A DNA stretch of 11,388 nt. Origin: Gemmatimonadota bacterium. GTDB taxonomy: Bacteria > GCA-2686955. How positions within the stretch are numbered: the stretch's first letter is position 1; each line of letters opens with the position of its first letter. Both the position numbers and the translations under genes were made by a program. Of the stretch, positions 6,212 to 11,244 are shown piece by piece. Where the stretch lies: positions 1 through 11,388 of the forward strand of contig NYZA01000033.1 in assembly GCA_002686955.1 (NCBI GenBank). The letters run 5' to 3'. Under the pieces are notes generated by a model, which searched no databases, had not been told where the DNA came from, and saw nothing but the letters and a program-made list of their open reading frames with translations.

Positions 6212-7234
6212 ATGGACTACAAGCAAGCCGGCGTGAGTATCGACGAAGGCATCGCCACCGTGGCCAAGATCAAGCGCGCCGCCAAACGCACGAGGCGGCC
6301 TGGAGTGCTGGGTGGACTCGGTGGGTTCGGCGGGCTCTTCCATCTCGAGAAGGCCGGTTTGAAAGACCCGGTGCTCGTCTCCAGCATCGACGGCGTGGGG
6401 ACCAAACTGATGGTGGCGGCGATGGCGGGGAGCCACCGTGGCCTCGGCGCCGATCTGGTGAACCACTGCGTCAACGACATTCTCGTCCAGGGTGCCCGTC
6501 CCCTATTCTTCCTCGACTATGTCGCGATGGGTCGCCTCGACTCGGAGACCGTCGCCTCGATCGTGGAGGGTGTCGCGGAGGCGTGCGAGGCGGTGGACTG
6601 CGCCCTTCTTGGTGGCGAAACGGCCGAGATGCCGGGCCTCTACGCCGACGACGATCTCGATCTGGTCGGCGCGATCGTCGGCGCGGTCGAGCGGCGCAAG
6701 GTCGTGACGGGAAAGGCGATTCGTGAAGGAGACGTGGCCCTTGGGCTTTTCTCAGCCGGACTCCATACCAACGGTTACACCCTGGCCCGACGCATCCTCT
6801 TCGATCTGAAGGGCTTCGCGGTCGATTCCCCGCTCCATGAAGGGGGACCTAGCGTTGGCGATGTGTTGCTCGCCGTGCATCGTTGCTACGAGCCCGCACT
6901 CCGCCCGGCGCTCGATCGGGGCATCGTCCATGGTCTGGTGCACGTCACCGGGGGTGGGCTGCTGGAAAATGTGCCGCGTGTGTTGCCCAAGGGATTGGGC
7001 TGCCGCGTCAATCGAGATGCTTGGGAGCTGCCGGTGCTCTTTCGGCTCCTGGCCGAGTGGGGTGAGGTCGCTGAGCTCGAGATGTTTCGCGCCTTCAATA
7101 TGGGGATCGGCATGGTCGTGTTCTGCGCGCCGAAAAACGTGGAGCGCATTCTCGAGGGCGCGCGAGCGGCCGGCGATGAAGGGGCCGTGATCGGCCGTGT
7201 CGTGGCCGCGGAGAAGCCGATCCAGCTCGCCTGA
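6212..7234 (+). CDS. purM: Phosphoribosylformylglycinamidine cyclo-ligase (AIR synthetase)
   Basis: Fifth step of purine synthesis: ATP-dependent ring closure of FGAM to 5-aminoimidazole ribonucleotide in the cytoplasm. The 340-residue protein is of normal length. It shows YKQAGVSIDEG (3-13), SSIDGVGTKL (57-66), NHCVNDILVQGARPLFFLDY (84-103), LLGGETAEMPGLY (122-134), SAGLHTNGYTLAR (181-193), HVTGGGLLENVPR (224-236) and FNMGIGM (275-281), which are the PurM signatures in order. The Gly-rich GVLGGLGGFGGLF (31-43) is the usual flexible N-terminal loop. Start ATG 6212 has GGAG only about 3 bases upstream, a short spacing, but the start is fixed by the YKQAGV motif. purN and other pur genes are not adjacent. 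The 39-base gap from the preceding gene suggests read-through from the same operon. Confidence 0.97.
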   Translation: MDYKQAGVSIDEGIATVAKIKRAAKRTRRPGVLGGLGGFGGLFHLEKAGLKDPVLVSSIDGVGTKLMVAAMAGSHRGLGADLVNHCVNDILVQGARPLFFLDYVAMGRLDSETVASIVEGVAEACEAVDCALLGGETAEMPGLYADDDLDLVGAIVGAVERRKVVTGKAIREGDVALGLFSAGLHTNGYTLARRILFDLKGFAVDSPLHEGGPSVGDVLLAVHRCYEPALRPALDRGIVHGLVHVTGGGLLENVPRVLPKGLGCRVNRDAWELPVLFRLLAEWGEVAELEMFRAFNMGIGMVVFCAPKNVERILEGARAAGDEGAVIGRVVAAEKPIQLA

Positions 7235-7237
7235 TTC

Positions 7238-7254
7238 CGCGCACTGCCTGCGCG
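7238..7254 (+). terminator. Weak hairpin just after purM
   Basis: Six-base arms CGCGCA (7238-7243) and TGCGCG (7249-7254) flank a 5-base loop, starting 4 bases after the purM stop. The only following Ts are within GTTCTCC, so there is no proper U-tract. It may be a weak or factor-dependent terminator, or chance in GC-rich DNA. Its position at the end of the long operon is the main support. Confidence 0.3.
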
Positions 7255-7366
7255 TTCTCCGAGATATCGAATTGCCCTGGTGCGCACGCCCCGCGAGCAT
7301 CGTGGCGGTCGCTGATGACGACTCCGGATCCGGGGATCGAAAGCGATAGCGGACAGAAAGGTGCTT

Positions 7367-7379
7367 CGACCGTCGGTCG
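7367..7379. promoter_or_regulatory. Candidate activator-binding palindrome (upstream site)
   Basis: A perfect palindrome CGACCG-T-CGGTCG ends 8 bases before the -24 element. Two more palindromes lie further up at 7324-7333 and 7280-7287, about 55 and 100 bases before -24. Enhancer sites for sigma-54 activators are usually palindromic and lie about 80-150 bases upstream, so the farther ones fit position better and this one fits symmetry better. Binding is inferred only. Confidence 0.4.
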
Positions 7380-7386
7380 CGTGGGG

Positions 7387-7401
7387 TGGCACGTCGCTTG
7401 C
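7387..7401 (+). promoter_or_regulatory. Sigma-54 (RpoN) -24/-12 promoter
   Basis: TGGCACG, four bases, then TTGC: TGGCACGTCGCTTGC. This equals the consensus TGGCACG-N4-TTGC at every specified base, with the GG and GC dinucleotides at correct spacing. It points toward the gene at 7521, with a transcription start expected near 7413 and thus a leader of about 108 bases. The downstream gene encodes a sigma-54 activator, so self-activation is plausible, and read-through to the PrkA gene is possible. Confidence 0.87.
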
Positions 7402-7466
7402 CGATCGTCGAAGCGGATCAGAAACGACCGGACCACAGCCCGGGCGGGTGGAATCTCTCGCACCGC

Positions 7467-7485
7467 ATCCGAGATCCGCTCGGAT
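7467..7485. repeat. Inverted repeat in the leader of the activator gene
   Basis: Perfect 7-base arms ATCCGAG (7467-7473) and CTCGGAT (7479-7485) surround a 5-base spacer. The repeat lies about 55 bases after the predicted transcription start and ends 21 bases before the ribosome-binding site. It could form an RNA hairpin in the leader or be an operator for a repressing dimer. The sequence does not decide between them. Confidence 0.45.
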
Positions 7486-7520
7486 AGCCCGTTCCGCGCA
7501 ACGCATGGGAGGACGTCTCA

Positions 7521-8885
7521 GTGGAAGATATCGCCAGGGTATTGCTCGTCGATCTCGCCGGCGGGCAAGCGTTGGGAATCGCGGCCGGCCTCGAGAGCTC
7601 GGGGATACGGGTTCGATCGGAGACGAGCGTCCACCGGCTGGGGCACTCGCTCGATGCCGTTCGGCTGGTGGTCGTGGCGCATCGCAGCGATGACGGATCG
7701 GTCGACGGCGTTCGATCGGCGCTAAGAGAAGCCTGTCCAGGGCTCTCGACGATCTTCTTCCCTCTGAGCTCGAGACCCTCCACCGCCGCGTTGCTCGAAA
7801 TGGCGGGGCGGATCGAGTCGGAGCTTCGGCTTTCCGGCAACACCGATCTCGTTGCGCTCAACTTTCGGCCGACCCGCCATATGGGCGCGATGATCGGAAC
7901 GAGTAGGCCGATGCGCGAGCTGTACTCGGCGATCGGGTCGGTCGCGCCCACCTCGGTCTCGGTGCTGATTCACGGCGAGAGCGGTACCGGAAAGGAGCTA
8001 GCGGCGCAGGCGATCCACTCGAACTCCTCCCGGCGCGATGGCCCCTTCGTTCGGGTGAACTGCGCCGCGCTGCCGGCTTCTTTGCTGGAATCGGAGCTTT
8101 TCGGGCATCAGCGCGGTGCCTTCACCGGTGCTACCCATGACCGCCCCGGACGATTCGAATCGGCGAACCACGGCACTCTTTTTCTCGATGAGATCGATTC
8201 CGCGGAGGCGGCCCTTCAGGGCAAGCTGTTGCGCGTGATCGAGCAGAAGGAGTTCGAGCGCCTGGGCGACAACCGGACCCGGCGTGCCGATGTGCGCATC
8301 ATCGCGGCGACCAACGCCGATCTGCCGGCCATGGCGAGGCGGGGGAGCTTTCGCGCCGATCTCTTCTACCGGCTGGCCTCGGTCGAACTGAGCCTGCCGC
8401 CGCTCAGGGCGCGCGGCGACGATCTGGTCCTTCTCGCCGCCGAAGGGGTGCGGCGGTTGAACCGCGAAGTCGGTCGATCGGTGACCACGATTCGACGCCA
8501 GGCCCTCGATCGGCTGATGACCCATCGGTGGCCGGGAAATGTGCGCGAGCTGAACAATGTATTGTGTCGCAGCCTCTTGGCGTCCGACGGTCGGGCGATC
8601 GAGCCGGAGAACCTGCCGGTCGTCCTCGGATCGAGCTGCGCGTACGAGGCGACCGACCCCACAAGCCCGGTTCATGGCCTGCGGGAGGCGATCTCCTCAC
8701 TCGTCGCCGCCGCCCCGGACGATCTCTATCGAAGGGTGATCGACGAGACCGAGAAGGAGCTGATCGGTCTGGTGCTCCGCGAGCACGACGGCAACATCCG
8801 CCGCGCCTCTCAAGTGCTGGGGATCGCGCGAAATACACTGAAGGAGAGGATTCGGCGCTTCGACCTGCTGCGTGGAGAGGCCTGA
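7521..8885 (+). CDS. Sigma-54-dependent transcriptional activator with degenerate receiver-like N-terminus
   Basis: A 454-residue NtrC-type activator. Residues 1-115 are receiver-like in size and pattern (RVLLVDLAGG at 6-15, LVVVAH at 49-54, STIFFPL at 76-82). However, the usual phospho-acceptor Asp is replaced near H54, and the usual Lys after the fifth strand is absent. The AAA+ domain (about 120-350) is intact: IGTSRPMREL, Walker A GESGTGKE (152-159), sigma-54-contacting GAFTGA (199-204), Walker B GTLFLDEID (218-226), sensor I IAATN (261-265), arginine-finger region FRADLFYRL (277-285) and sensor II WPGNVREL (337-344). A Fis-type helix-turn-helix lies at about 425-447 (NIRRASQVLGIARNTLKERI). 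Start GTG 7521 follows GGGAGGA at a 7-base spacing. The gene has its own sigma-54 promoter at 7387-7401. No histidine kinase is adjacent. The signal sensed is unknown; control by a partner protein instead of phosphorylation is inference. Confidence 0.93.
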   Translation: MEDIARVLLVDLAGGQALGIAAGLESSGIRVRSETSVHRLGHSLDAVRLVVVAHRSDDGSVDGVRSALREACPGLSTIFFPLSSRPSTAALLEMAGRIESELRLSGNTDLVALNFRPTRHMGAMIGTSRPMRELYSAIGSVAPTSVSVLIHGESGTGKELAAQAIHSNSSRRDGPFVRVNCAALPASLLESELFGHQRGAFTGATHDRPGRFESANHGTLFLDEIDSAEAALQGKLLRVIEQKEFERLGDNRTRRADVRIIAATNADLPAMARRGSFRADLFYRLASVELSLPPLRARGDDLVLLAAEGVRRLNREVGRSVTTIRRQALDRLMTHRWPGNVRELNNVLCRSLLASDGRAIEPENLPVVLGSSCAYEATDPTSPVHGLREAISSLVAAAPDDLYRRVIDETEKELIGLVLREHDGNIRRASQVLGIARNTLKERIRRFDLLRGEA

Positions 8886-8976
8886 GGAATCCAAAGAAAC
8901 CGTCTCTGCCGCCCGCGGACCTATCCTCCCGGCCGCACGCTGAACTAGCATCTCGCCAGAAGCCGTCCGGCCGGCG

Positions 8977-8992
8977 GATCGGATTCCCGATC
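8977..8992. repeat. Small inverted repeat before the PrkA gene
   Basis: Six-base arms GATCGG (8977-8982) and CCGATC (8987-8992) with a 4-base spacer lie 4 bases upstream of AGGAG (8997-9001), the ribosome-binding site for ATG 9010. It lies in the 124-base gap after the activator gene, where I found no -24/-12 sigma-54 match and no clear sigma-70 promoter. It could be a leader hairpin affecting translation, a protein site or chance. Confidence 0.3.
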
Positions 8993-9009
8993 GTGCAGGA
9001 GACCTCCGA

Positions 9010-11244
9010 ATGAGCGAGATTATCGACGAAGTAAGCGGCAAGGTACAGGAACGGTTCAGCTCTTCCGGGCGCCTGCTAAGCTTTCAGGACTATCTCGACG
9101 CCGTCGAGGAGGCGCCCTACGCGCATCTGCGCTCAGCGGCCCAGTACTGCGCCGACATGTTCGACCACTTCGGACGGTACAACGTGCAACGGATCGGCGA
9201 GCCGCTCTATCGCTTCCGGATCTTCGACGCTCCCAACGGGGGCGAGCCGGTCTTCGGCCAAGAGAAGGTACAAGCCGAGCTCCACAGATGCCTTCAGGCC
9301 TTCGCGGAAGATGGTCGCCCCGACAAGCTCATCGTGCTGACCGGGCCGAACGGATCGTCGAAGAGCTCTCTCGTCGATCTGATCTTCCGGGGGATGGAGA
9401 CCTACTCCTATTCCCCGCAGGGAGCGCTCTATCGATTCAACTGGGTTTTCCCCAACCGCAAGATCGTCGGCGAATCGATCGGATTCGGTGCCGATGCTGG
9501 CCGGGGGAGCAGCGCGTCGTTCGCGCACTTGGGCCAGAAGGAGATCCAAGCCAAGTTGGTCTGCGAGCTCAAGGACCATCCGATTCTGCTTCTGCCGAAA
9601 CCGGCGCGTGAGGATTTGATCGAACGTTTCGAATCCGCCGGCTCGGCGACACGCAACCTGCGTTTCGTCCTCGATGATGAGCTCTGCGCGAAGTGCCGGG
9701 GAATCTACGAGGCGCTGCTCGACGACTACTCAGGCGATTGGGCCAGGGTCGTTCAGCACGTACAGGTTCAACGCTTCACGATCAGCCGTCGCTACCGCGT
9801 CGGGGCCATCACGATCGAGCCGCAGGGGAACGTAGACGCAACGGCGAAACAGGTCACCGCCGACCGCAGCCTCGGCAACCTGCCGCCCAGCTTGCAGAGC
9901 CTCAATCTAATCGAACCCTCCGGCGATTTGATCGATGCCAATGGCGGTGCGATCGAGTACTCCGATCTGCTGAAACGCTCGGTCGAGGCGAACAAGTACC
10001 TCCTTACAACGTGCGAGAAGAGAACGATTTCACTGCCGGGCTTCATGGCTTACTTGAATCTCGTCATGTTTGCGACGACCAACGAGAAGCAACTCGATCA
10101 GTTCAAGCAGGACCGCATCTTTACATCGTTCAAGGGCCGAATGGAGTTGATCCCCACTCCTTATTTGCTGGAGCTTTCGCGGGAAGAGCAGATCTACGAA
10201 CGGATGCTGAAGCGGATGGGGCAGAGGCGCCATATTGCCCCGGGCACCGGTCGCGCGGCCGCGCTATGGGCCGTCCTCACGCGGCTCAACCGACCGGTTC
10301 CGGATCGCTACGAGACTTCGCAGAAGGGAGGAATCGCGAAGCTCTCGCCGCTCGAGAAGGCCGAGCTGTACGAATCGGGTCAAGCCCCGCGCCGCCTCCC
10401 GGCCGACGCCAGACGGAAGCTGGTCGCCGCCCTGCCGGCCCTGCGCGACGAGTACGAAGGAACGGAACACTACGAGGGCCGCTACGGGATTTCGCCTCGC
10501 GAGATCCGGGCGGTTCTCGTCGAAGCGGCGGCGCGTCCCAACAGCCCCTGCATCGGCCCGGAGGCGGTTCTGGATGAGATCGAGGCGCTCGTCAAGAACA
10601 GGACCCTGTACGACTTCCTTCAGATCGAGGCCAGCGGGGGCTACCACGATGTCGAGGAATTCATTCGCTGCACGCGGCGCGATGCGTTGCGGCGGCTCGA
10701 TGAGGACCTGACCGATGCGGTCGGACTGGTCAGCGAGGAGGAATACGACCGTCGCTTCGACCGCTATTTCGACCACATCAAGGCCCAACTCCGCAGCGAG
10801 AAGGTGCCCAATCCAACCACGGGCCAGCTGGAAGATCCCGATGAGGCGCTGATGGAGGGGATGGAGGCACTCTTCGATCTTCCCGCAGAGAGCAAGGCCG
10901 ACGCGATCCGTCGCGACTACCTGCTACGCATCGGAGGGTGGGCGCATGAGCATGCAAAGCTCGATGTTTCGAAGCACTATCGTGAGATATTCGAGGACCT
11001 CTTCGGCAACATGAAGCGAAAGATCCGAGAGGCGAATCAGGAGCGGGTCGGCCGATTGAGAGCCAATATCCTCAAGCTCGGCACCGACGAAGAGAGGGCG
11101 ATCTCGGCCGCCGAGAGGGCGAAGGCGGGCGACGCGCTCCAGTTCCTGGTCGAAGAGCGTGGCTACTGCGATTCGTGCGCCAAGGCCGGGATCGTGTTTC
11201 TGCTCAAGCACGAGTCGGAGATCGCGGAGCTCGACAAGAGCTAG
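9010..11244 (+). CDS. PrkA-family AAA+ serine protein kinase-like protein
   Basis: A 744-residue cytoplasmic PrkA-family protein. The N-terminus (FQDYLDAVEEAPYAHLRSAA) and the segment VFGQEKVQAELHRCLQAFAE (81-100) lead to an unusual Walker A, GPNGSSKSS (112-120), typical of PrkA. Further PrkA features are ALYRFNWVFPN (139-149), GDWARVVQHVQVQRFTISRRYRVG (242-265) and a Walker B/sensor region containing VMFATTNE (352-359). The C-terminal part (about 390-744) is mostly helical and corresponds to the PrkA C-terminal domain. CxxC pairs occur at C226/C229 and C720/C723. PrkA proteins such as E. coli YeaG are usually about 640-690 residues, so this one is somewhat long. They are linked to starvation and stationary-phase responses; kinase activity is reported for some members but not certain here. 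ATG 9010 follows AGGAG at an 8-base spacing. The usual partners yeaH (DUF444) and spoVR are not in the window, but could lie beyond its end. Confidence 0.92.
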   Translation: MSEIIDEVSGKVQERFSSSGRLLSFQDYLDAVEEAPYAHLRSAAQYCADMFDHFGRYNVQRIGEPLYRFRIFDAPNGGEPVFGQEKVQAELHRCLQAFAEDGRPDKLIVLTGPNGSSKSSLVDLIFRGMETYSYSPQGALYRFNWVFPNRKIVGESIGFGADAGRGSSASFAHLGQKEIQAKLVCELKDHPILLLPKPAREDLIERFESAGSATRNLRFVLDDELCAKCRGIYEALLDDYSGDWARVVQHVQVQRFTISRRYRVGAITIEPQGNVDATAKQVTADRSLGNLPPSLQSLNLIEPSGDLIDANGGAIEYSDLLKRSVEANKYLLTTCEKRTISLPGFMAYLNLVMFATTNEKQLDQFKQDRIFTSFKGRMELIPTPYLLELSREEQIYERMLKRMGQRRHIAPGTGRAAALWAVLTRLNRPVPDRYETSQKGGIAKLSPLEKAELYESGQAPRRLPADARRKLVAALPALRDEYEGTEHYEGRYGISPREIRAVLVEAAARPNSPCIGPEAVLDEIEALVKNRTLYDFLQIEASGGYHDVEEFIRCTRRDALRRLDEDLTDAVGLVSEEEYDRRFDRYFDHIKAQLRSEKVPNPTTGQLEDPDEALMEGMEALFDLPAESKADAIRRDYLLRIGGWAHEHAKLDVSKHYREIFEDLFGNMKRKIREANQERVGRLRANILKLGTDEERAISAAERAKAGDALQFLVEERGYCDSCAKAGIVFLLKHESEIAELDKS

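Follow-up and report, generated by a model that had tools for sequence, protein, structure and literature searches.

The right end of the window (the whole stretch of DNA analysed, 11,388 nucleotides, which is the entire contig C33 of a source genome of 4.28 Mb in 270 contigs, 84.5% complete) carries purM, a sigma-54-dependent activator gene and a PrkA-family gene in that order on the + strand. We read this locus as a lineage-specific, possibly self-activating sigma-54 operon, in which an old PrkA paralogue has been placed in a local arrangement and not in a conserved module; our confidence in this reading is about evenly balanced. There is good support for a sigma-54 promoter preceding the activator gene. 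The features are as follows.

6212-7234, + strand: purM, the gene 5′ of the activator
7235-7386, no strand: purM-activator intergenic DNA 5′ of the promoter, the expected place for an upstream activator site
7387-7401, + strand: sigma-54 -24/-12 core TGGCACG-TCGC-TTGC, ~120 nt 5′ of the activator start codon
7521-8885, + strand: sigma-54-dependent activator (bacterial enhancer-binding protein), GTG start, 454 aa
7521-7850, + strand: degenerate receiver-like N-terminal domain of the activator, aa ~1-110, four beta-alpha units
7890-8390, + strand: AAA+ sigma-54 interaction domain of the activator, PF00158 at aa 124-290
~8115-8132, + strand: GAFTGA loop of the activator, motif present
8742-8861, + strand: Fis-type helix-turn-helix (HTH_8) of the activator, PF02954 at aa 408-447, 38.2 bits
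8886-9009, + strand: activator-prkA2 gap, exactly 124 bases
9010-11244, + strand: divergent PrkA-family AAA+ protein (‘PrkA2’ clade), 744 aa

The 286 bases between purM and the activator contain the promoter core (TGGCACGTCGCTTGC), which agrees with the pattern TGGCACG-N4-TTGC at 11 of 11 specified positions and bears out an earlier note on this DNA that had described a perfect -24/-12 promoter here. Its sole departure, a C at the W, is from the longer consensus TTGCW, and the spacing from the GG to the GC dinucleotide is 10 bp. Markov shuffling of the window produced 10/11 matches about 0.1 times per shuffled copy and never an 11/11 match. Genome-wide, the exact core occurs 12 times and a reversed control pattern 0 times; when one mismatch was allowed, the genome gave 88 matches and the control 92, which is control level, so that the weight is carried by the exact matches only. 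Three of the 12 are no more than 2 kb from an activator gene, where 0.34 would be expected, and this supports the exact cores as real promoters. Because the source genome also encodes rpoN and ~29 sigma-54 activators, the window promoter is credible; specifically, it has the GG-N10-GC spacing and core pattern of a sigma-54 (-24/-12) promoter in a genome that encodes rpoN.

The protein encoded behind this promoter has the make-up of a bacterial enhancer-binding protein, with a GAFTGA-bearing AAA+ domain and a C-terminal Fis-type helix-turn-helix, in keeping with the sigma-54 activator named in the earlier note. It matches the Pfam families Sigma54_activat (228 bits), AAA_lid_14 and HTH_8; G199, F201, T202 and A204 fall in invariant alignment columns of the AAA+ domain, and this domain compares with those of LuxO, FlrC, ZraR and FleQ at Z ~30. 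The first ~110 residues, on the other hand, match no Pfam family, the receiver family included. When this N-terminus was aligned to receiver-bearing activators from the source genome and a sister genome of the same family, the position of the phospho-acceptor Asp was occupied by Ala53, one residue of the acidic pair was kept and the second was Leu12, and the beta5/Lys region was absent. Judged by its Asp, acidic pair and Lys, the activator is not an NtrC-type phosphorylated response regulator. Comparison of the N-terminus with a receiver profile (hhalign) gave E 0.0015 with a probability of just 17%. VIA alignments to the receiver-containing NtrC1, NtrX, FleQ and VpsR extend as far as model residues 1-5. 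The AlphaFold model of this region has low to moderate confidence (pLDDT ~53-71) and is itself shaped by the alignment.

From the alignment and this model we infer that the N-terminus is probably a phosphorylation-incompetent receiver, as is the receiver-like N-terminus of FleQ (PMC10723142). Such a domain would in principle need no cognate kinase, which would explain why no histidine kinase gene is found in the window. The earlier note’s remark that no histidine kinase lies nearby is upheld within these limits; the contig ends 144 bases past prkA2, and the downstream side lies beyond it. Because the domain is receiver-like and has no phospho-acceptor Asp, control of this orphan-type activator is probably by a ligand, a partner protein or the amount of activator, as in FleQ, and not by a histidine kinase. 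Like FleQ of Pseudomonas aeruginosa and VpsR, the window activator has an atypical, receiver-like N-terminus on an AAA+ sigma-54 activator fold; unlike in those proteins, this N-terminus goes unrecognised by Pfam, and binding of c-di-GMP or FleN is known only there.

The claim that a PrkA-family gene follows 124 bases after the activator is likewise correct. In this gap, consensus scans found no sigma-54 site and no sigma-70-like site (the promoter scan covered sigma-70 and sigma-54 consensus types only), and a second sigma-54 promoter there was rejected on that scan; there is also no terminator-like site. The predicted RNA fold of the gap is unexceptional (z -1.65), and neither the gap nor the window matched an Rfam RNA. 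The absence of both a sigma-54 site and a terminator makes an activator-prkA2 operon plausible, although 124 bases is long for a tight operon and counts against co-transcription. The adjacency itself is weak evidence, as the locus was picked for it: with ~29 activators among ~4,000 genes, the chance of an activator as a given gene’s upstream neighbour is p ~0.007. The two genes could instead be unrelated neighbours, the promoter driving the activator alone with its targets elsewhere, and prkA2 having its own promoter of an unrecognised type in the gap. The length of the gap and the rate of chance adjacency in a genome so rich in activators agree with this; a gap free of promoter-like sites of the two types scanned, and of terminator-like sites, does not.

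Comparison with relatives also bears on this alternative. A one-genome-per-species scan and the genomes of a phylum taken to be Myxococcota yielded 122 distinct PrkA2 genes. A sigma-54 activator lies within 1 kb upstream in 0 of the 117 whose upstream DNA extends for at least 1 kb, and within 5 kb in 0 of the 73 where it extends for at least 5 kb. Conserved activator-PrkA2 pairing across the wider family can therefore be rejected, and conservation gives no sign that the two genes belong together. In two samples (63 and 70 loci), sigma-54 sites 5′ of prkA2 in relatives are as frequent as in shuffled sequence, which disposes of sigma-54 control as a general prkA2 trait. The neighbourhoods of prkA2 are otherwise variable, with no conserved downstream partner among the relatives’ loci examined. 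These observations favour unrelated neighbours, a reading that we regard as a serious contender, if somewhat on the improbable side. They also bear on the self-contained activator-PrkA module of the earlier note, which had proposed a survey of PrkA neighbourhoods and named a lack of pairing in relatives as grounds for abandoning the idea. The survey returned that lack of pairing, but the 117 relatives have at most 45% identity to the window protein and all belong to other phyla, and the module is at best lineage-specific.

Within the source phylum the sample consists of two genomes. The closest prkA2 relative (63% identity) is in the sister genome, on a contig that starts 130 bp upstream of the gene; purM was not found in that genome. 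In the sister genome, which is 83% complete, several other activators are represented by orthologues at 69-80% identity, and no orthologue of the window activator is detectable; the best match to this protein is 42% with the N-terminus excluded.

Activators do occur near prkA2 in Myxococcaceae and a few relatives, ~2-5 kb downstream. In the cases read, such an activator has an intact-looking receiver and a histidine-kinase-like neighbour, and looks non-orthologous to the window activator. At loci L198-L204 and L214, a histidine-kinase-like gene and then an NtrC-type activator lie ~2-3 kb 3′ of prkA2 on the same strand, with a deoxycytidylate-deaminase-like gene in between; this arrangement is found in one family and few others. 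At Oligoflexales/Silvanigrella-like loci (L028, L030, L040, L042, L045, L046, L052, L058 and L061), a PhoH-like gene, named by eye and with a PIN-type N-terminus, is divergent from prkA2 and directly 5′ of it.

Few bacterial stress proteins are as widespread as PrkA, and the window protein belongs to its family: it matches PF06798 at 137 bits and part of PF08298 at 91 bits, where the cut-off is 25. It is not a canonical PrkA, however, as it scores 45 bits with the NCBI canonical PrkA/YeaG model NF011999, whose cut-off is 576, and a tree places it in a clade well separated from canonical PrkA. We call this clade PrkA2; its members are ~740 aa long with a GPNGSxKS Walker A (GPNGSSKS at aa 112-119 of the window protein), where canonical PrkA has GPVGS. 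The CxxC pairs (CAKC, CDSC) were considered as a novelty of PrkA2 and set aside, since canonical PrkA shares them and numerous PrkA2 proteins no longer have them. The AlphaFold model of the window protein is good (pLDDT 88). Used as a Foldseek query, the model found generic AAA+ proteins only among the matches listed, with the canonical PrkA structure absent there; in contrast, that structure was found by sequence. Specifically, the window protein matches PDB 9xip at the sequence level, and the entries 9xip, 9xiq and 9xir (‘serine protein kinase’, PrkA, 692 aa) are full-length relatives by sequence, the PrkA2 profile giving E 2e-98. By their motifs GPVGS and LCPVCR these structures group with canonical PrkA, from which PrkA2 differs by GPNGS and by an insertion that follows the Walker A region. 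The biochemistry of PrkA, including serine kinase activity, is disputed even for the canonical protein; B. anthracis PrkA was reported to have no kinase activity and negligible protease activity (PMC13001217).

The source genome also has a canonical prkA, on a separate contig (C219), where it heads the operon prkA-yeaH-spoVR; yeaH and spoVR there were named by position, length and sequence resemblance, not by model. The sister genome likewise carries a canonical prkA on a contig other than that of prkA2, and in both genomes of the phylum the same conserved gene (~455-481 aa) precedes canonical prkA (L108:9533-10978, - strand; L109:2576-3943, - strand). The C219 operon is the equivalent of E. 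coli yeaG-yeaH-spoVR, and the window gene lies in the other PrkA clade, so the comparison with YeaG drawn by the earlier note attaches to the wrong gene. Sigma-54 control of the canonical operon in the source genome was considered and rejected, as no site with at least 7 of 11 matches lies within 400 bp upstream of it. The precedents are E. coli yeaGH, under NtrC (PMC4664914), and R. etli prkA, under RpoN1 (PMC3188799). The window shares with these loci a PrkA-family AAA+ protein that has a sigma-54 promoter upstream; in E. coli and R. etli, prkA-yeaH(-spoVR) begins with canonical PrkA and the NtrC gene lies at another locus, whereas the window gene, a divergent paralogue, follows a linked activator and the orthologous operon has no detectable sigma-54 site.

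These comparisons have implications for the feed-forward switch that had been proposed for this locus, in which a nitrogen-type signal would directly activate both the activator gene and prkA2. A feed-forward loop requires a second activator with both genes as its targets; an activator that drives its own operon is positive autoregulation, so the term was misapplied. The linkage and the promoter are present, and sigma-54 control of prkA/yeaG in E. coli and R. etli provides a precedent, but no further sigma-54 site precedes prkA2, the yeaG orthologue is the C219 gene (itself without such a site) and the pairing is not conserved. We consider a feed-forward switch dedicated to PrkA very unlikely.

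PrkA2 is carried by 154 of 193 sampled genomes (manual count) of the phylum taken to be Myxococcota, and also by some Planctomycetota, Oligoflexales and other genomes. By an HMM test for DUF444 (YeaH), 145 of the 154 PrkA2-bearing genomes have this protein versus 17 of the other 39 (Fisher p 8e-12, with genomes treated as independent and kinship ignored), and a wider survey found it in 23 of 24 genomes. This co-occurrence suggests that PrkA2 works beside the canonical PrkA-YeaH system, and no paper describing the clade was found among open-licence papers. A stronger proposal is that PrkA2 is an undescribed partner arm of PrkA-YeaH-SpoVR, present across Myxococcota and scattered elsewhere, which in this candidate lineage has come under a dedicated, kinase-independent, self-activating sigma-54 activator; taken as a whole, we think this quite improbable. 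The most useful by-product of this analysis is that PrkA2 emerges as a widespread clade co-occurring with canonical PrkA-YeaH; as a separate paralogue that tracks PrkA-YeaH-SpoVR, it offers a second handle on that system.

Under the lineage-specific operon that we favour, sigma-54 RNA polymerase would start near 7415 from the promoter at 7387-7401 and transcribe the activator gene; because the gap has no terminator or other recognisable promoter, part of this transcription probably runs on into prkA2. The activator would then bind 5′ of its own promoter and switch on its own operon, and the level of PrkA2, an AAA+ protein that by its co-occurrence may act beside the separate canonical PrkA-YeaH-SpoVR stress system, would rise. 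A repeat search found an inverted repeat, CGACCG-T-CGGTCG, at 7367-7379; this is a candidate only, as several similar short palindromes occur in the same GC-rich DNA and none can be singled out. No upstream activator site in 7235-7386 could be assigned to any activator, and self-activation is thus a guess among ~29 activators. A cascade would fit the same promoter: another of the ~28 remaining activators would drive it, the local activator would act on other genes, and prkA2 would be carried along or not. The size of the activator set and the precedent of Myxococcus Nla28, which directly regulates other activator genes (PMC9765219), speak for this, but the binding site is assigned to none of these activators either, and action near an activator’s own gene is also common (PMC4641369). 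We judge a cascade unlikely, though by no means far-fetched.

The closest parallels for self-activation are Desulfovibrio vulgaris DVU1949 and DVUA0100, in which a one-component activator lies in or next to its own sigma-54 operon, is itself under a sigma-54 promoter and has a neighbouring target gene; autoregulation has been proposed for activators of this kind, and for DVU1949 activation of its own operon (PMC4641369). Those links are conserved across genomes with predicted binding sites, and no conservation was found for the window pairing. The activator linkage would matter only if it recurred in close relatives or were shown experimentally; as it is, the locus shows how a stress gene in a single lineage can acquire a sigma-54 activator as its neighbour. 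Elsewhere in the source genome, one exact sigma-54 core lies ~140 bp 5′ of a dnaK-like gene (C257:20715-20729, - strand), and two others (C111:13655 and C1:109) lie shortly downstream of two other activator genes, pointing away.
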